Assembly (NCBI GenBank): GCA_030679035.1
Contig: JAUXTH010000114.1
Coordinates: forward strand, 1-64,000
DNA from: Methylobacter sp.
GTDB taxonomy: Bacteria; Pseudomonadota; Gammaproteobacteria; Methylococcales; Methylomonadaceae
Direction: 5' to 3'
Length of the DNA stretch: 64,000 bases
How positions within the stretch are numbered: position 1 is the first letter of the stretch; every line of letters starts with the position of its first letter. Below the pieces are notes generated by a model. That model did no database searches. It was not told the DNA's origin and worked only from the letters and a program-made list of their open reading frames with translations. A program made the translations under genes and the position numbers. Below, one piece after another: positions 3,172-49,314 of this stretch.

Positions 3172-4374
3172 ATGTCTGAGCTTTATATCGGACTCATGTC
3201 CGGCACCAGTCTGGATGGTATTGACGCCGCTCTGGTTGATTTTAAAGACGAAAAAGTCCGGCTTGTCGGGTTTGAATACCAGTCCTTCCCTACCGACCTT
3301 CAAAGCGCAATCCAGAGACTTAGCAAACCTGACGCGCTGATCTCGCTTAAGGAATACGGTGCTATGGACTCCCGGCTTGGGCACTTATTCGCTGACATTG
3401 CTAATAGCTTGCTTGCCAAAGCCGATATTCCCGCCGCATCGGTCAGCGCCATCGGCAGCCATGGGCTAACCGTCTACCATGCACCGGAAATTCGACCGCC
3501 AGGGATGGTGGAAGTGTCGCAATCGGTAGGGAACCGATGCGACAAATTCCCTTTCTCCCTGCAAATCGGCGACCCCAACATAATTGCCGAACTTACCGGT
3601 ATTACCACCGTGGCCGATTTCAGACGCCGGGATATTGCAGCCAAAGGACAAGGCGCGCCGCTGGTTCCTGCCTTTCACCAAGCCATATTCCAGCACCCGA
3701 ATGAGCACCGCTGCATCGTCAATATCGGCGGCATCGCCAATATAACCGTGCTACCCAAACATCAGTCCACAGAAGTTATCGGCTTTGATACAGGCCCCGG
3801 CAACACCTTGATGGATCTATGGATCAAGCTGCAACAAAACCAATCGTATGATAAAAACGGCGCGTGGGCCAAAACCGGCAACATCAATCATGATTTGGTG
3901 GGGCTATTAAAACAAGACCCTTATTTCAATGCCGCCCCGCCCAAAAGCACCGGCAAGGAGTATTTCTCGCTCCCCTGGGTTTACCAGTATTTCGACGCAT
4001 TCAGTTACAAGGCCGAAGACGTACAAGCCAGCTTGTGTTTTTTAACGGCGATTACGATTTGCGATGAGATCAAAAAACACGCCCCGGCTACCGAGCGGGT
4101 ATTGATTTGCGGCGGCGGTAGTCACAATGCCTACTTGCTGGAACTTATCCAACAAAACATGGAATGCCCTGTCGAATCAACTGAACGCTACGGAGCTCAC
4201 CCCGATCATGTCGAGGCCATGGCTTTTGCGTGGCTAGCCAGACAAACCATGAATAATCTGCCGGGCAATCTTAAAGAAGTCACAGGAGCGGTTAACTCTG
4301 TCATTCTTGGAGGGATTTATCAGGGAAACAAAAAGGGCGGCATCCTGTCGCCCGTCGAAGGGGAAAAACTATAA
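3172..4374 (+). CDS. anmK: Anhydro-N-acetylmuramic acid kinase, carrying an in-frame repeat insertion
   Basis: Phosphorylates and hydrolyses 1,6-anhydro-MurNAc to MurNAc-6-phosphate during peptidoglycan recycling. The N-terminal MSGTSLDGID motif and the GFDTGPGN and CGGGSHN segments are diagnostic. At 400 residues it is about 30 longer than usual. About 17 extra residues (PPGMVEVSQSVGNRCD and neighbours) sit between HAPE and FSLQIGD, which nearly abut in other AnmK proteins. They are encoded by a 51-bp element at 3493-3543 that recurs at 19874-19924. The insertion keeps the frame and the catalytic motifs look intact, so the enzyme is probably active. The 3' end nearly abuts the convergent erpA. 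Confidence 0.95.
   Translation: MSELYIGLMSGTSLDGIDAALVDFKDEKVRLVGFEYQSFPTDLQSAIQRLSKPDALISLKEYGAMDSRLGHLFADIANSLLAKADIPAASVSAIGSHGLTVYHAPEIRPPGMVEVSQSVGNRCDKFPFSLQIGDPNIIAELTGITTVADFRRRDIAAKGQGAPLVPAFHQAIFQHPNEHRCIVNIGGIANITVLPKHQSTEVIGFDTGPGNTLMDLWIKLQQNQSYDKNGAWAKTGNINHDLVGLLKQDPYFNAAPPKSTGKEYFSLPWVYQYFDAFSYKAEDVQASLCFLTAITICDEIKKHAPATERVLICGGGSHNAYLLELIQQNMECPVESTERYGAHPDHVEAMAFAWLARQTMNNLPGNLKEVTGAVNSVILGGIYQGNKKGGILSPVEGEKL
3493..3543 (+). repeat. 51-bp two-hairpin GGA-loop element inside anmK
   Basis: It differs from 19874-19924 at one base in 51. A short stem around CCA-GGGA-TGG is followed by a longer one: GTCGCAATCGGT, loop with GGGA, ACCGATGCGAC. It lies in sense orientation to anmK and is translated as PGMVEVSQSVGNRCD. 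Both loops expose GGA, as in CsrA-binding hairpins. Confidence 0.85.
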
Positions 4375-5842: not shown

Positions 5843-5950
5843 AATAACTGGGACATATGATAACCGCAACTTGGATTGTTGACGATGTTGTGACTATGCC
5901 GCAGCCTGAACAGATGCTTGCCATTGAAAGTAGTCTTTTAAAGTTGAGCA
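5843..5950 (+). pseudogene. Degenerate copy of the 5' end and leader of the qor gene
   Basis: This stretch aligns with 9451-9560, the leader and first ~20 codons of the quinone oxidoreductase gene. Both share AATAACTG, ATAACCGCAACT, an ATTGTTGACG/TTATTGACG-type segment, GAACAGATGCTTGC and ATTGAAA. The left copy has substitutions and small indels, and similarity fades after about 5950. It is best explained as a relic of qor left when the KAP gene segment was inserted beside argC. A 99-codon open frame across it shows no family features. Confidence 0.8.
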
Positions 5951-6111: not shown

Positions 6112-9030
6112 TTACAAGTGCAGGGTGTTCAAGCCCGCATACAAACTAAACCATAAGTACAGTTGACCTTCAGCCTTTTCCAATGCGGCAAATCGTTCAT
6201 CAGTTTTTTCATTATTTCGGTAGTCAAGATCGCTCATTAATGTCTTCAGCTCAGGCAAATTATTTGGCCTTTTCATGAGTGCATCATTTAGTCTGTTGAA
6301 ACTATCACTATTTTTATTATAAGCAAAAAATTGCATCACGCTTGTTGCCAACTCACCTTGCGTATAAACGTCTAGCATCAACAAGTGCATGGCTAAACGC
6401 TCATTTATTTCATCGTGTTGAAACGGAACGGGTAAGGGTTGCCTTCGAAAACGCCAAGCTTGCCATTTTTCATCCAACGCCGCATACCACGGTTTTTCCT
6501 GATAAACGCGCACCCTCATGTCAAACAACCGTGCACGGTTGAGCAAACGTTTCCAATCGCGCGGCGTTTTATGATGCTCGGCAAGCCAAAGTTGCCACTG
6601 ACTCATGACCTCGATAAAAACCTGAGTATCTTGAACTTGCAAACTTAAACGCCAAACCATAAGCAGCAATATCAGGCTTAAGCCTCCTGCAAAATCCCAC
6701 AGCCAATAATGTGTGGGATAGAGTTGTTCATCGACAAACACCACAGGCGCGGCTGCCGACTTAGGCCCTGATGATTCAATCGGTTTTTTCTCGGGTTCAG
6801 GTTTGGCATTTTTAGCGAGTTCTACAACAGGTAGTTTACTTTCCACTACGTTCACAGATTTTAACGACTGGCTGGCAAAATCCTGCGCGACTAAACCCAA
6901 ATGCACCCCCGCAAAAGCCAATGCCGAAGCCAACACTAAAATAAACAGGCCGTCATAAACAGGTGTCAGCATCTTGCGGTTAAAGCGCTTAATGGCTTGC
7001 CAACACATCCACAAACCTAACTCAAGTCCACGCCAGACAACCGATACCAACAAACGCAAGGGGCTTTGCAACATGGCAAATGCCAAACAAGCCCAACGCT
7101 GGCTGGGCGAATACGCCAGCCGAGGCCAATACTTCGTCAACTTGCCCCACCAATCGACAACTTCTTCGGCCTTGCGCTGAGTACGGTCAATTAGCGCGAC
7201 TCGACTGCCGTTCACCGCCGGTAAATCGATGCTGATCTGGATAATTTTTTCCAGATAATGTTCAGCAAAGGCTTTGCCTTTGGTATCGGTATCGGCGCGG
7301 GCTACCGCCAAGTCCTTAAATGCCACACCCAACGCATCGGTTACATACTCCCAATCCATCGCCAGCACCGCATAACAGGGCGCGGGCGTCGAGAACAAAA
7401 AGTTCAGCGTCGTCATCACCGACTCGATTTGCTTAGGTTCGCAACGATCCAGATCATCGATTAACAGCAGCAAGCGGCCTTTACCCAAAGCCTTTGCCAC
7501 CGTTTCAAAGTCCCGCGCGAAACGGAAGCGCAAGCCGGCATCTTTCGACCAGTCGGCAACCTGCATCGCCTCCTTGGCGGATTTGCCCAAACGGCTTGCC
7601 AAGGCAACCAATTCCGGGGAAAACGCGCAAAATGTCGCCAACCACGATTTCAGCAAGCGGTAAACCAGCAATGCCGCCAGCACTGCAAAAATCAGTTTAA
7701 ACCACGGCTCGGTGACTGACATTTTTAGCCATGCCGGGATTAACGCCGGTAATTCACGGCTTAGCCAATCGCCGAGGATTTGCCATTGCTGTTGCTTGGC
7801 AAAAAACACTGTTGTCGTAAGACCTGCCAGCACCGCCGCCAAACCTCGGAAGCCGGAACCGGCAAAGCAGCGAAACCACAGCAAACGGCTGCGGAACACC
7901 AAATTATCCAGGCTTAACATAGGTGGCAGGGCTTGCTCTCGGACATGCTCCATTAACGCCGCCAGCAATTGCCCGTCATCGCGGTAATGCCAAGCATTCA
8001 ACTGCACCGCAAACACCTCGCCCTGCAATTCATGCTGCAACAAACCCAGCACCGAACTTTTGCCGCTGCCCCAAGGTGCGGTAATGGCTATCGCCAGCGG
8101 CGGCACGGTGTCGCGGTTGCGGATTAAATCGGCCAGGGTTTTAACCAGCTCCAGCCGTCCTAAGCAGTCTTCTTGGGCTTGGGTAACGGGTGCGTCGTTG
8201 ATGCCGCCTTGCAGTCTACGCGGCTCAGCATAGTAGCTGTAGGTGTGTCGGATCACTAAGCTACCAGTGAGTAACAATAGCAATAAGACTAAAGAACTGG
8301 GAAAAACGGCTAGCTTAGGACGGCTTTCGCCAATTGCTTTTAATAATGGGAGAGAACGATTTTGCCAAGTTGTGCCGCCGTTGTCGGTGGCAAGGATGAT
8401 GCCATCCGAACCCACCACCCAGCCGTGTTGCGGGTCGGTGAACTGTACCGCTTTAAACAATATTGTCGCGCCGCTCTGTTGTGGCTGCCAGCTTTGTCCG
8501 CCGTTGTCGGTAGCAAGAATGACGCCATTCTCACCCACCGCCCAGCCGTGTTGCGGGTCAGCGAACTGTACTGCGGCAAGCGCTGTTGTCACGCCGCTCT
8601 GTTGTGGCCGCCAGCTTTGCCCGACGTTGTCGGTGACAAGGATGACACCATCCGAACCCGCCACCCAGCCGTGTTGCAGGTCGGTGAACTGTACCGCGTA
8701 AAGCGTTGTTGCTACGCTGCTTTGTTGCTGCTGCCAGCTTTGACCGCCGTTGTCGGTGGCGAGGATGATGCCATTCAACCCCACCGCCCAGCCGTGTTGC
8801 GAATCAATAAACGCCACATCATTCAAGTCACCTACATTAACTCCAACCTGTCCCAAAGCCTCATGATTGCTTAACGGCTTCAACCAGGTTTGCGGGTTTA
8901 ACCAATCACTATCCAATCCTTTGCCATTAACAAAATACTCATTGGTTTGCATCAAACTCCAAGCCAATACAGCCAGGAACAAGAACAAAGCGATAAAAAC
9001 TTTCCGGGGCGAGCGCGGTGCAAGTGACAT
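6112..9030 (-). CDS. Membrane KAP P-loop NTPase with N-terminal YCF48-like repeats
   Basis: A 972-residue protein. Residues 11-27 form a membrane anchor. Residues about 64-226 hold four repeats of ~43 residues around QHGWxxGxxGxILxTDNxGxxW, the YCF48/BNR propeller type. A second membrane helix lies at about 243-262. The KAP NTPase domain follows: Walker A APWGSGKSS at 318-326, two membrane helices (about 393-410 and 444-465), and Walker B LLLLIDDLDR at 520-529. More helices lie near the C-terminus. KAP NTPases are membrane-associated STAND-like ATPases, and PifA of plasmid F excludes phage T7. Function here is unknown; a sensor or defence role is possible. The gene stands alone in a segment bracketed by qor 5' copies. 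Confidence 0.85.
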   Translation of the reverse strand: MSLAPRSPRKVFIALFLFLAVLAWSLMQTNEYFVNGKGLDSDWLNPQTWLKPLSNHEALGQVGVNVGDLNDVAFIDSQHGWAVGLNGIILATDNGGQSWQQQQSSVATTLYAVQFTDLQHGWVAGSDGVILVTDNVGQSWRPQQSGVTTALAAVQFADPQHGWAVGENGVILATDNGGQSWQPQQSGATILFKAVQFTDPQHGWVVGSDGIILATDNGGTTWQNRSLPLLKAIGESRPKLAVFPSSLVLLLLLLTGSLVIRHTYSYYAEPRRLQGGINDAPVTQAQEDCLGRLELVKTLADLIRNRDTVPPLAIAITAPWGSGKSSVLGLLQHELQGEVFAVQLNAWHYRDDGQLLAALMEHVREQALPPMLSLDNLVFRSRLLWFRCFAGSGFRGLAAVLAGLTTTVFFAKQQQWQILGDWLSRELPALIPAWLKMSVTEPWFKLIFAVLAALLVYRLLKSWLATFCAFSPELVALASRLGKSAKEAMQVADWSKDAGLRFRFARDFETVAKALGKGRLLLLIDDLDRCEPKQIESVMTTLNFLFSTPAPCYAVLAMDWEYVTDALGVAFKDLAVARADTDTKGKAFAEHYLEKIIQISIDLPAVNGSRVALIDRTQRKAEEVVDWWGKLTKYWPRLAYSPSQRWACLAFAMLQSPLRLLVSVVWRGLELGLWMCWQAIKRFNRKMLTPVYDGLFILVLASALAFAGVHLGLVAQDFASQSLKSVNVVESKLPVVELAKNAKPEPEKKPIESSGPKSAAAPVVFVDEQLYPTHYWLWDFAGGLSLILLLMVWRLSLQVQDTQVFIEVMSQWQLWLAEHHKTPRDWKRLLNRARLFDMRVRVYQEKPWYAALDEKWQAWRFRRQPLPVPFQHDEINERLAMHLLMLDVYTQGELATSVMQFFAYNKNSDSFNRLNDALMKRPNNLPELKTLMSDLDYRNNEKTDERFAALEKAEGQLYLWFSLYAGLNTLHL
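8353..8826 (-). repeat. Four tandem ~129-bp coding repeats (YCF48-like)
   Basis: Within the KAP NTPase gene, four direct repeats with a ~129-bp period encode the W/G-rich propeller units. The DNA copies are very similar, sharing CCGCCGTTGTCGGT and CCCAGCCGTGTTGCG on the plus strand. This suggests recent duplication or gene conversion. Confidence 0.9.
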
Positions 9031-9450: not shown

Positions 9451-9500
9451 AATAACTGCGGCATATAATAACCGCAACTCAGTTTATTGACGTTGTAACT

Positions 9501-10484
9501 ATGTCGCTTCCCGAACAGATGCTTGCGATTGAAATTGAAAACGGTGTTTTAAAACCGGTCAAACGCGCCTTACCAATACCATCAGCCAATCAAGTATTAA
9601 TTAAGGTCGAAGCCGCCGGAATCAATCGACCCGATGTGATGCAGCGCAAAGGCCTGTATCCGCCCCCGCCCGGCGCATCCGACATTCCGGGGCTTGAAGT
9701 TGCAGGAACCATTCAGGCATTGGGCAGCAACATCGATCATTTGAATTTAGGTGACCGGGTCTGCGCACTGGCGACCGGCGGCGGTTATGCCGAATATTGC
9801 CTCGCCTCGGCGGCGTTATGCCTGCCTGTCCCGGAAAATCTGTCTTTTGCCCAAGCCGCGGCATTGCCGGAAACTTTTTTTACCGTTTGGAGCAATGTTT
9901 TCGACCGCGCCCAGTTGCAGCTAGGCGAAACACTGCTGGTGCATGGCGGCACCAGCGGCATAGGCACGACAGCGATACAACTTGCCAAGGCCTTTAACGC
10001 CAAGGTCATAGTCACCGCAGGTTCAGAAGCCAAATGTAATTTCTGTATCGACCTAGGCGCCGATGCCGCAATCAACTACAAGGAACAGGATTTTGTCGAC
10101 GAGATCAAACGGCTTACCGACAACCAAGGCGTCGATGTTATCCTAGACATGATCGGCGGCGACTATTTCCCGCACAACCTAAAGTGCATGAGCGATGATG
10201 CCCGGCTGGTGCAAATCGCTATTCAAGACGGCCCGAAAGCCGAGATAAACTTGCTGCCGGTCATGCTCAAACGGCTCACCATTACCGGCTCGACCTTAAG
10301 AGCCAGGGACGATGACTTTAAAGCCGCAATCGCCGACAAATTACTGGAAAACGTCTGGCCCTTATTAACATCAGGTAAAATCAAACCGATTATCCATTCA
10401 ACTTTTGCGCTCAGCGATGCCGCAAAAGCCCATCAACTCATGGAAAGCAGCCGACACATCGGCAAAATCATCTTAATGGTATAA
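9501..10484 (+). CDS. NAD(P)H quinone oxidoreductase, zinc-independent MDR family
   Basis: A 327-residue medium-chain reductase predicted to transfer hydride from NADPH to quinones or enones. The GroES-like N-terminal half includes GINRPDVMQRKG. The Rossmann motif VHGGTSGIGTTAIQLA lies at about residues 150-165. The catalytic-zinc residues of alcohol dehydrogenases are missing, as in the QOR/PIG3 group. The sulfurtransferase gene begins 4 bases after its stop. The 5' end is duplicated at 5843-5950 across the KAP insertion. Confidence 0.92.
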   Translation: MSLPEQMLAIEIENGVLKPVKRALPIPSANQVLIKVEAAGINRPDVMQRKGLYPPPPGASDIPGLEVAGTIQALGSNIDHLNLGDRVCALATGGGYAEYCLASAALCLPVPENLSFAQAAALPETFFTVWSNVFDRAQLQLGETLLVHGGTSGIGTTAIQLAKAFNAKVIVTAGSEAKCNFCIDLGADAAINYKEQDFVDEIKRLTDNQGVDVILDMIGGDYFPHNLKCMSDDARLVQIAIQDGPKAEINLLPVMLKRLTITGSTLRARDDDFKAAIADKLLENVWPLLTSGKIKPIIHSTFALSDAAKAHQLMESSRHIGKIILMV

Positions 10485-11974: not shown

Positions 11975-12062
11975 CCTACATGGATGTAGGTAAGGGGCGT
12001 GAGCACGACTGCACGGATGCAGGAGGTAGAGCAACGCAGGAGCAGTTGCCGAGGAGCGGAAG
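11975..12062 (+). repeat. GGA-loop hairpin array downstream of thpR
   Basis: At least three stem-loops exposing GGA: CCTACA-TGGA-TGTAGG (11975-11990), TGCA-CGGA-TGCA (12010-12021), and GCAACGC-AGGA-GCAGTTGC (12031-12049). The first contains ACATGGATGT, close to the CsrA-binding consensus ACARGGATGT. The second and third share GCAGGAGGTAGAGCAA with the element at 22389-22605. No gene is seen between thpR and xseA. Confidence 0.75.
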
Positions 12063-19733: not shown

Positions 19734-19778
19734 TAGATGCTGAAATTACCCTACTTCAATAGCTATGCAGGCAGACCC

Positions 19779-20651
19779 ATGAGAATTTTACTGGTTTTAT
19801 TATTATGTTTGCCCGGCTGGGTGAATGCGGAAATTTACGAATGGCAAGATGCGAATGGCAGCAAGCATTTTTCCGACCGCCAGGGATGGTGGAAGTGTCG
19901 CAATCGGTCGGGAACCGATGCGACCGAGTGCCCGGTTGCCGATGCAAAAACAGTCGATATAAAACCCGGCTATGCTTTTTTCAGGGTCAAGACGGTTTAC
20001 GATGGCGACACTGTGGTGCTGGAGGACGGCCGCAAAATCCGCTTTTTGGGTATCAATACACCCGAGATTCAGCACCGGGACAAACAGGCCGATGCGGGCG
20101 GCGACGAGGCCAAACGCTGGCTGGCCGACAAGCTGAAAAACGCCAAAGTCCGCCTGGAAGTGGGCATGGAAAAAACCGATAAGTACGGCAGGACGCTGGC
20201 GCATTTGTTCACCGAAAAAAAAGAACATATCAACCTGCAACTGGTTATCGCGGGGTTAGCGGCAGTCAGCATCTATTCGAACGAGCTGCTCTATGTAAAC
20301 GAATTGGTTAGGGCGCAGGATCAGGCAGAGCAAGCCAAGCTCGGCATTTGGGGGCGACCTGAATATGCCGCAATACCGGTTGCCGGTCTTACCGAAGCCG
20401 GGCATCCGGGCTGGACGCGTCTGGTCGGCAAGGTGGTCAATATCCGCAAGACCCGCAAGTCGGTTTACCTGGAATTTTCCGATGCCTTCGAGGCGCGCAT
20501 CGAAAGCAAATGGCTGGATTTATTTCCCGATGTTAACAGCTATTTGGGCAAGACTATCGAAGTGCGAGGCTGGCTAAACAAAAGCAAAGGGCATTTGTCG
20601 ATGCTAATCCGTCATCCGAGTGCGATTAAGGAAAAACCGTATCCGCTTTGA
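19779..20651 (+). CDS. Secreted thermonuclease-family nuclease with DUF4124 N-terminus
   Basis: A 290-residue exported protein. The ATG at 19779 gives a signal peptide ending near VNA. The open frame could start at 19737, but that would bury the signal. A DUF4124-type segment (EIYEWQDANGSKHFSDR) follows, then a staphylococcal-nuclease domain with its key residues: YDGDTV, IRFLGINTPE (Arg and Glu) and KYGRTLAHLF (Arg). The C-terminal ~80 residues resemble an OB-fold extension. Residues after HFSDR (QGWWKCRNRSGTDAT) come from the 51-bp element at 19874-19924, read in a different frame from the anmK copy. Confidence 0.88.
   Translation: MRILLVLLLCLPGWVNAEIYEWQDANGSKHFSDRQGWWKCRNRSGTDATECPVADAKTVDIKPGYAFFRVKTVYDGDTVVLEDGRKIRFLGINTPEIQHRDKQADAGGDEAKRWLADKLKNAKVRLEVGMEKTDKYGRTLAHLFTEKKEHINLQLVIAGLAAVSIYSNELLYVNELVRAQDQAEQAKLGIWGRPEYAAIPVAGLTEAGHPGWTRLVGKVVNIRKTRKSVYLEFSDAFEARIESKWLDLFPDVNSYLGKTIEVRGWLNKSKGHLSMLIRHPSAIKEKPYPL
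19874..19924 (+). repeat. 51-bp two-hairpin GGA-loop element inside the nuclease gene
   Basis: 50 of 51 bases match 3493-3543. The only difference lies in the second loop (C for A). It is in sense orientation and in frame, encoding RQGWWKCRNRSGTDAT, a peptide unrelated to that of the anmK copy. Confidence 0.9.
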
Positions 20652-22388: not shown

Positions 22389-22605
22389 CCGTCATCCCGG
22401 CAGGGATTGCCGGGATCCACGACTGCAAGGATGCAGGAGGTAGAGCAATGCATGGAGCAATTGCCGAGAAGCCATGGATGGCAATGCTAAATCAAGACAC
22501 ATGGAATATTCGACATAATCAATCGGTTAGGTATCAATTGTTATTCACTGTGTGCTTTATCACATCCCTGTGCTCTGGATCCCGGCAATCCCTGCCGGGA
22601 TGACG
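22389..22605 (+). repeat. 217-bp element with perfect 30-bp terminal inverted repeats and GGA-loop hairpins
   Basis: The ends 22389-22418 and 22576-22605 are exact reverse complements over 30 bases. The left arm itself folds as CCGGCA-GGGA-TTGCCGG. Inside lie TGCA-AGGA-TGCA (22423-22434), GCAATGC-ATGGA-GCAATTGC (22444-22463) and GCCA-TGGA-TGGC (22470-22481). No transposase is encoded, so it resembles a small non-autonomous element. It fills most of the 390-base gap between rimO and zur. Confidence 0.85.
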
Positions 22606-47821: not shown

Positions 47822-47862
47822 ATCATCCAGATGGATTATGCAGGAGGTAGGGCAATACGTTG
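47822..47862 (+). repeat. Partial GCAGGAGGTAG-type repeat at the 3' end of the flippase gene
   Basis: CATCCAGATGGATTATGCAGGAGGTAGGGCAATAC resembles the GGATGCAGGAGGTAGAGCAA segment at 12014-12035 and 22428-22447. It is antisense to the flippase gene and supplies its last codons and stop (RIALPPA). Confidence 0.65.
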
Positions 47863-49314
47863 ACGGCCTTCGCATAGCGCGGTAATCAGTACATAAAGCA
47901 GCATCAATGCACTCGCCAACAGCCACGGTTGCCAAGTTAAACTCATCAACAAGTGCCCGTGAGCAAAATACAAGCCGATGCCTAGCCCGATATAACCGAT
48001 TACGCGTTTGACATCGTAATCGACCGGATAATATTTTTGCCCCAACAGATAGGAGACGATGGCCATGCTGCCGTAACAGGCCAATGTCGCCCAGGCCGAA
48101 CCGACATAACCGAACTGCGGTATCCACCAGACATTGAGACCAATCGTCAGTGCCGCTCCGGCTAAAGATACCACGGCACCCATTAAGGTACGGTCAGTCA
48201 ATTTATACCAGATGGACAGGTTAATATAAATACCCAGGCATAAATTAGCCAGCAGCAATATCGGCACGACTTCAAGCCCTGCGCGGAACTCCTCGCCGAC
48301 AAAATATTTAAAGAAATCGATAAATAAAGTCACCAACAGAAAGATGAAGACGCAAAAAATGACAAAAAACTTAAGCACCACCGCGTAAACTTGTCGGGCA
48401 TCGCTTTTGCCTGCGTAAGCAAAGAAAAACGGCTCGGCGGCATAACGGAAGGCCTGAATGAATAGCGACATCAAAATCGACAGTTTGTAACAGGCGCTGT
48501 AAATCCCCAGCATCTTCAGGTTGGTTTGTATATCGTAAGGCAGCAGGTACTTTAACAAGGCGCGGTCGAGCATTTCGTTGATAATCCCGGCGAAACCGAT
48601 CACCGCCATCGGCAACGAATAGCGAACCATGCGGGCGAATAATGCCCGGTCAAAACCCCAGGCAAGGCCGGATAACTGAGGCGCAAGCAGCAAAAACTTA
48701 AAGCCGCTGGCCATTAAATTGGCGATAAAAATATAACCGATGCCGATGGCCGGGTTGTAGACCGGCGCTATCCATGACTCGGGATTTTCCGCATAGACCT
48801 TGGGGCAGTATATGATGAAAAACAGGCTCAGCAGCACGGTTACCCCGATCTCGACGATTTTGATGCCGGCGAAGCGGAAGGCCCTGTTTTCCGCGCGCAG
48901 CCGGGCAAACGGAATTGCGGCGATAGCGTCCATGATGAAAATCATGCTGAACCACAACACATATTCCGGGTGATCGGCATAGTTCAGCGCCGCCGAAAGC
49001 CGCGTGTTGATCAGCAGCATCAAGGCAAAAAAGCCCAAATTGATCAACACCACGAATATCAGCGCTGTCGAATAGGCGACATCGGGGCCTGTGTGCTCCT
49101 TATCGCGAAACCGAAAATAGCCGGTTTCAAACCCGAATAGCAGCAACACGGAAAAAAATCCGGCGTAGGCATAAAACTCCGACACCACCCCGTATTCCGC
49201 CGCCGTGAAGTAATAGGTATACAGCGGCACCAACAGGTAGTTGAGGAATCGCCCGAAAATGCTGCTGAGGCCGTAGACAGCAGTCTGAGATGCAAGTTTT
49301 TTTATAATGCTCAT
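47836..49314 (-). CDS. Polysaccharide flippase (Wzx/MATE-like)
   Basis: A 492-residue inner-membrane protein with about 12-14 helices and an RfbX-like N-terminus (KLASQTAVYGLSSIFGRFLNYLLVPLYTYYF). Such proteins flip undecaprenyl-linked sugars across the membrane. No glycosyltransferases are nearby, so it is an orphan flippase here. The last seven codons come from a dispersed repeat. Confidence 0.88.
   Translation of the reverse strand: MSIIKKLASQTAVYGLSSIFGRFLNYLLVPLYTYYFTAAEYGVVSEFYAYAGFFSVLLLFGFETGYFRFRDKEHTGPDVAYSTALIFVVLINLGFFALMLLINTRLSAALNYADHPEYVLWFSMIFIMDAIAAIPFARLRAENRAFRFAGIKIVEIGVTVLLSLFFIIYCPKVYAENPESWIAPVYNPAIGIGYIFIANLMASGFKFLLLAPQLSGLAWGFDRALFARMVRYSLPMAVIGFAGIINEMLDRALLKYLLPYDIQTNLKMLGIYSACYKLSILMSLFIQAFRYAAEPFFFAYAGKSDARQVYAVVLKFFVIFCVFIFLLVTLFIDFFKYFVGEEFRAGLEVVPILLLANLCLGIYINLSIWYKLTDRTLMGAVVSLAGAALTIGLNVWWIPQFGYVGSAWATLACYGSMAIVSYLLGQKYYPVDYDVKRVIGYIGLGIGLYFAHGHLLMSLTWQPWLLASALMLLYVLITALCEGRQRIALPPA

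Follow-up and report, generated by a model that had tools for sequence, protein, structure and literature searches.

A 51-bp two-hairpin palindrome inserted in frame in unrelated genes of Methylobacter is probably one copy of a short non-autonomous mobile family

The window, by which we mean the whole stretch of 64,000 nucleotides of Methylobacter sp. contig JAUXTH010000114.1 that was analyzed, carries the anhydro-N-acetylmuramic acid kinase gene anmK at 3172..4374 (+ strand; Pfam AnmK PF03702, E 5e-132) and a gene for a staphylococcal-nuclease-like protein at 19737..20651 (+ strand; Pfam SNase PF00565, E 3e-21); the label "DUF4124", which an earlier sequence-only reading had given to the nuclease protein, was not returned by Pfam at E 1e-8. 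Each gene holds one copy of a 51-bp element, at 3493..3543 in anmK and at 19874..19924 in the nuclease gene, both on the + strand. That reading had put their identity at 50 of 51 bases, and our repeat comparison of the window confirmed the figure (direct-repeat family D3, 51 nt, 98%), with the 28-base core occurring twice at 0 mismatches versus no occurrence in 100 dinucleotide shuffles. The two genes also read the element in two different frames, as had been claimed: it starts at a codon boundary in anmK, where it contributes 17 codons in phase (RPPGMVEVSQSVGNRCD), and at a third codon base in the nuclease gene (RQGWWKCRNRSGTDAT). The sole mismatch between the copies is an A to C change at element base 36, which turns TAG into TCG in precisely the nuclease's frame, such that copy 1 is the TAG form and copy 2 the stop-free TCG form. 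The termini of the element read CGAC...GCGAC on the + strand and GTCGC...GTCG on the other.

RNA folding of the element yielded two hairpins, A (6-bp stem, 4-nt loop GGGA) and B (11 pairs, one bulged A, 5-nt loop), located on the + strand at 3496..3511 and 3516..3543 in copy 1 and at 19877..19892 and 19897..19924 in copy 2, with fold energies of -24.2 and -23.9 kcal/mol for copies 1 and 2 (z of -4.3 and -3.4 versus shuffles). Across 67 distinct 51-mers, which include some same-site copies of different species, hairpin B was paired in 95.3% of cells and 8 of its 11 pairs had changed on both sides; for A and B together this was 10 of 17 pairs, arm A being absent from composite rows, which lowers the score for A. 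The covariation score was reached by none of 500 shuffles, and sliding the partner abolished the covariation.

The sequence-only reading had proposed searching the complete genome for the element, and it proved to lie at many places in its own genome, as a dispersed family. Judged by sequence comparison, the 51-mer is a member of a dispersed mobile element family and not ancestral coding sequence. In its own genome (4.79 Mb, 216 contigs), a search with the anmK copy gave 54 similar places at E <= 10, counting the query itself and partial matches, and a separate search that allowed up to 3 mismatches found a 29-base core 15 times, versus 0 for a reversed-pattern control. The B-hairpin core was found in 24 of 101 genomes searched, again counting the genome itself, and in 35 of 221 genomes drawn from the family, where it was present in 21 of 23 Methylobacter genomes (G004 and G014 lacking it) versus 14 of 198 others. 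Exact cores in named records (43 stretches, a count that may omit the window's own genome) all belonged to Methylobacter except for those of a Methylovulum MAG and of "Methylomicrobium sp. wino1". Genic copies are also present in the isolates M. tundripaludum SV96 and OWC-G53F, and the copies that the isolate Ca. M. oryzae KRF1 contributes to our set are all non-genic. Because isolates are among the carriers, the element is not a MAG artefact; assembly error or contamination, which a draft in 216 contigs might suggest, is hardly credible for something that nearly the whole genus carries and that occupies the same CobQ site in SV96 (G019) and in the window's own genome. Outside cellular genomes, a core lies between two ORFs of the 52-kb viral contig IMGVR_UViG_3300004199_000001 (L220:4461-4490), such that phages could carry the element between species; searches of plasmid and phage collections gave no match to the element.

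We then compared orthologues with and without the element. The sequence-only reading had regarded the element as an insertion and had reasoned that the same peptides at these sites in distant relatives would instead mark it as ancestral coding sequence; alignments of AnmK and the nuclease show the relatives' sites empty and the insert to be exactly 17 codons, which upholds insertion. For AnmK, all 24 relatives' genes compared (16 from the genus, 8 from the order; the search covered 31 genomes, own included, six of which gave no AnmK match) were without the 17 codons, as were the PDB chains 3cqy and 3qbw, and the AnmK of G001 holds a 5-codon remnant with ends like those of the element. Among 26 nuclease homologues, own included, the site was filled in five (G000, G009, G007, G008 and G015), empty in 19 and unaligned in two, with 5 filled and 13 empty within Methylobacter; the junction is ambiguous here, as the empty site reads CGACCG, like the start of the element. 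HisC was filled at one site in 4 of 22 genomes and at another in G006 alone, so that two codons were hit in different species (L051, L057) and each species provides an empty control for the other. CopA carried the insert in 1 of 21 orthologues aligned, four loci of about 53% identity having been set aside as paralogues. At the single CobQ site, G000 and G019 hold 17 codons and G005 holds 34, the site being empty in 18 of 21 genomes. In MurF, compared in 23 genomes, G021 (45 codons) and G022 (34 codons) carry the insert, G009, G010 and G014 have one or two additional codons resembling remnants, and G002 may retain a trace. At five sites (AnmK, both HisC sites, CopA and CobQ), taking away exactly 51 bp by eye restored the length and frame of the relatives. 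The element thus inserts precisely, as 51 bp or as composites of such units, into genes and intergenic DNA.

To survey genic location, a profile search of 219 loci was used, in which 181 hits reduced to 94 distinct full copies once partial, truncated and duplicate hits were removed; some of the 94 are the same site in different species, and the search, which relied on resemblance to the consensus, misses diverged copies. A copy was called genic when a stop-free ORF of at least 100 aa spanned it and the flanks had positive codon bias. By this test 74 of the 94 copies (79%) lie inside coding ORFs, versus 1516 of 1801 matched random windows from the same loci (84%; Fisher p=0.19), so genes are not clearly avoided by the element, though its genic share is slightly below that of the control windows. 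A GTAG-type repeat of the same genome was genic in only 7 of the 30 copies examined out of 68 found (p=7e-8 versus the element). Because the test demands a stop-free ORF, every genic copy is in frame by construction, and frame-keeping therefore rests on the empty-site alignments and on a check of the 20 non-genic full copies, none of which was found to break a gene. For the same reason, the absence of in-frame stops from genic copies was dropped as evidence of translation and replaced by a count of interrupted genes. One copy, L025, had been considered gene-breaking when its flanks were joined, and this was rejected as the copy is intergenic, its left flank being glucose-6-phosphate isomerase to its end (profile 541/544) and its right flank MltF (profile 15-475 of 483). 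This degenerate 56-base copy (own genome C40:19235-19279) gives the glucose-6-phosphate isomerase gene its stop codon, just upstream of mltF.

The host genes are diverse. A set of 77 copies, with three L015 array copies added by hand, fell into 37 host clusters, one of which merges several genes via shared arrays. Pfam returned families for 9 of 10 hosts submitted (AnmK, SNase, aminotransferase, Mur ligase, E1-E2 ATPase, CobQ-type, CobN, CCG-domain and penicillin-binding protein), and an SbcC-like host ORF had no Pfam family at E 1e-8. We read the aminotransferase as HisC, and from their translations further hosts appear to be FtsQ, FlhF, PilP, CobS, NtrY and others. All six frames are used, with 14, 12, 7, 4, 4 and 2 of 43 host-frame combinations (chi-square p=0.006), one of the two in the least-used frame being probably spurious (a short ORF in L015). 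The peptides of the two most used frames are without aromatic residues, histidine and cysteine. Of 92 exact 51-mers, 63 have a stop at bases 35-37 when read in the frame of the nuclease, and the stop-bearing genic copies make up 30 host-frame combinations that all fall within the five other frames. The nuclease is the sole host in the stop-prone frame, and all five of its carriers have the stop-free form. Among 14 stop-bearing non-genic copies we found no interrupted gene versus about 6 expected with equal frames, a chance of 0.004 if combinations are taken as independent and frames as equal. This frame pattern is consistent with translation and subsequent selection against unfavorable peptides. 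We had also considered the openness of the frames as a coding adaptation and rejected this, since 37% of shuffles that preserve the structure, and 26% of simple ones, have at least five open frames as well.

Our preferred reading, at a probability of roughly 0.87, is that the 51-mer belongs to a Methylobacter family of short, non-autonomous mobile palindromes that are inserted in frame, translated and filtered by frame, and whose hairpins are recognized by a mobilizer. With a length divisible by three and five or six open frames, the element adds 17 codons to a gene that receives it in an open frame and leaves that gene open. The insert would then be translated, usually as a disordered loop, and insertions that stop or spoil the protein would be lost, leaving survivors biased to harmless frames; the paired hairpins may be what the mobilizing machinery recognizes, as single-stranded DNA or RNA. 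In an AlphaFold model of AnmK (24-sequence alignment; mean pLDDT 88.2), the insert forms residues 108-124, of which 109-124 fall below 50 and lie between two strands. The corresponding HisC model with insert was too poor to use (mean pLDDT 55). Compact GC-rich hairpins inserted in conserved genes could also suggest mobile translational bypass or removal at the RNA level, where a ribosome or RNA process skips the element and the protein is unaltered. We regard this as very improbable, as such skipping would require neither multiples of three nor the sparing of genes: the resolved inserts are multiples of three, no interrupted gene was found among the 14 stop-bearing non-genic copies, and five loci submitted to Rfam matched no family. 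Frame and stops, which are irrelevant to the survival of bypassing elements and introns, thus seem to matter for this one. As for a mobilizer, the Y1 transposase domain PF01797 is present in 23 of 23 genomes, and a RAYT/Y1 transposase was tried as a candidate. It was rejected, as scanning 50 loci with the element profile (L127-L176; 30 PF01797 loci and 20 fetched regions, some overlapping, which together cover part of all Y1 genes) gave one weak, partial match, of 25 nt and 245 bp from the Y1 gene, in L146.

Evaluating the sites that are filled in more than one species, we found the element to be less diverged than the gene around it. In the only three genes fetched by homology rather than by element pattern, and hence unbiased, pS was 0.148, 0.077 and 0.000 in the element versus 0.441, 0.472 and 0.371 in the rest of the gene (nuclease, HisC and CobQ, respectively), and no other 17-codon window was as low (0 of 243, 0 of 354 and 0 of 441). 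Element divergence was similarly low when the comparison was widened to 12 sites, one more having failed to align; most of these loci were found by element pattern, which biases the set to conserved copies. With the same bias of pattern-found loci, same-site copies differed on average at 0.79 of 32 bases (28 pairs), versus 3.09 for different-site copies between genomes (3770 pairs) and 4.47 within genomes (388 pairs). The immediate flanks, 15 codons on each side, showed ordinary divergence in most pairs, the near flanks of cluster 5 being also less diverged. The sequence-only reading had argued from the differing peptides to selection on the nucleic acid. Differing peptides alone would prove only mobility; covarying stems and the low synonymous divergence at three shared sites do speak for such selection, which is nonetheless only partly shown, because recent spread between species would also lower synonymous divergence.

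Two histories for these shared sites were weighed. If insertions were ancestral, inherited vertically and lost often, with survivors kept by selection on hairpins in mRNA or DNA, one would expect the low element pS that no other window of the same length reaches, the covarying stems, and decay after insertion such as that seen in the AnmK remnant of G001 and the apparent MurF remnants. This reading is nevertheless unlikely in our view, as a single gain per site needs 9, 5, 7 and 9 losses (HisC, nuclease, CobQ and MurF) versus 3, 4, 3 and 2 parsimony changes, the unoccupied sites are clean, and the carriers show no significant clustering on the tree, shuffled labels being as good in 178, 378, 1000 and 1000 of 1000 trials for the same four genes. 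The other history, recurrent arrival at the same codon between species through short-tract homologous recombination, a homing-like step or a strong site preference, has in our judgment an even chance of being right. It accommodates the scatter of carriers over a six-gene tree (the HisC insert, for instance, is in G008 and absent from its sister G015, though some nodes are weakly supported), an element less diverged than mostly ordinary flanks, the closeness of same-site copies, a CobQ stem variant common to G000, G019 and the distant G005, and the presence of the MurF site in the Methylovulum MAG as well (L217/L205). Against it, no common target motif is seen beyond the C at +1 (28 of 33 non-tandem sites have this base directly 3' of the element), neither donor nor enzyme is known, and the divergence evidence is tempered by the bias of the wider set, the restriction to three unbiased genes and the flanks of cluster 5. 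Overall, repeated arrival at the same place is favored over constraint with many clean losses.

The copies also combine with one another. Tandem copies occur at exactly 51-bp spacing (e.g., G007:C2), and 102-bp composites consist, by eye, of a second 51-bp two-hairpin unit set in opposite orientation between hairpins A and B. The single form in one species and the composite in another share the same site in CobN, an FAD-reductase-like gene and CobQ. Joining this to repeated arrival, we tentatively picture a homing-like 51-bp palindrome without genes of its own that would repeatedly colonize the same codon across Methylobacter species and the Methylovulum MAG, would be younger than the gene around it, and could grow at its site through nesting of further 51-bp units with the host protein kept in frame; this fuller picture is possible, though less likely than not. 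In the window's own genome, a gene that is ExbB-like by our reading (L023/L024, C206:8599-8676) holds a related form of the element, two units 54 bp apart that share its hairpin A and have an unrelated hairpin B; related element families may swap their second hairpin.

It is from Rickettsia, a genus difficult to culture, that small palindromes lying in frame within conserved genes are best known. The sequence-only reading had likened the element to the Rickettsia palindromic elements (RPEs) but in a gammaproteobacterium, and the in-frame 17-codon gains and empty sites support such a protein-coding palindrome. Like RPE-1, RPE-4 and RPE-6, it is a palindromic hairpin repeat lying in frame within many unrelated genes, with empty sites in relatives. 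RPEs insert into RNA genes too. RPEs are described as having open reading frames and translated products, as being 105-146 bp long in an obligate intracellular alphaproteobacterium, and, for the shorter ones, as ending in CGTC (PMC2229807; PMC3733652). Our element is instead 51 bp long, has two hairpins and no CGTC end, resides in gammaproteobacterial methanotrophs, uses six frames on both strands, and fills the same sites in scattered species. The GTAG/CGTC REPs of Di Nocera 2013 resemble it in their short hairpins, tandem and composite arrays and some intragenic copies, and CGTC REPs are likewise presented there as lacking a known transposase (PMC3733652). Most REPs of that survey are given as intergenic (PMC3733652), in contrast to the largely genic copies here. 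The 51-mer has neither a GTAG or CGTC terminal tag nor, in the 50 loci scanned, a convincing link to RAYT, the mobilizer of GTAG REPs and REPINs; none of the 51-mers of alignment A2 has GTAG or its complement at its start or end. The string "Methylo" is absent from the main text of that survey (PMC3733652). ERIC/RU-1, Correia, QMITE1/2 and other MITEs are non-autonomous repeats that at times form in-frame gene fusions, and as described they are about 100-400 bp long, in most cases bounded by terminal inverted repeats and in many by target duplications (PMC2229807, PMC5896051). The termini of the 51-mer are instead a short direct repeat, CGAC...CGAC, and no target-site duplication was seen by eye at the five resolved sites. 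A palindromic amphipathic repeat coding sequence in Mollicutes (PMC2996958) and palindromic DNA in coding genes of Nematomorpha mitochondria (PMC6649704) are, by their abstracts, repeat or long inverted-repeat structures and not single 17-codon insertions. A search for literature on such inserts in Methylobacter found none, judged by titles and the starts of abstracts. The element functions like RPEs, yet it fits fully into none of the families compared.

The family is abundant and possibly still active in methanotrophs that include cultured isolates. MurF, HisC, CobQ, CopA and AnmK offer many natural pairs of filled and empty alleles, which allow tests of how the element moves, whether its peptide is relevant and how proteins evolve through insertions that keep the frame. 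Inserts of 17 and 34 residues are also to be expected when methanotroph proteins are annotated.

Other repeats accompany the element. A second repeat family of about 48-49 bp, of GTAG type by its GGTAGAG motif, occurs in the window at 12004-12038, 22418-22452 and 47838-47863; it is the repeat with 68 own-genome matches mentioned above and is mostly intergenic in the 30 examined. Several of its copies lie within loops of further palindromic repeats; two loci, L333 and L343, have it in the loop of the 51-mer's hairpin B. The window further contains three long tandem copies at 8364-8806, spaced by 123 bp and 81-83% alike to the reference copy, as well as a pair of segments 3.6 kb apart, at 5843-5929 and 9451-9534, that are 83-85% identical over two 46-nt blocks.
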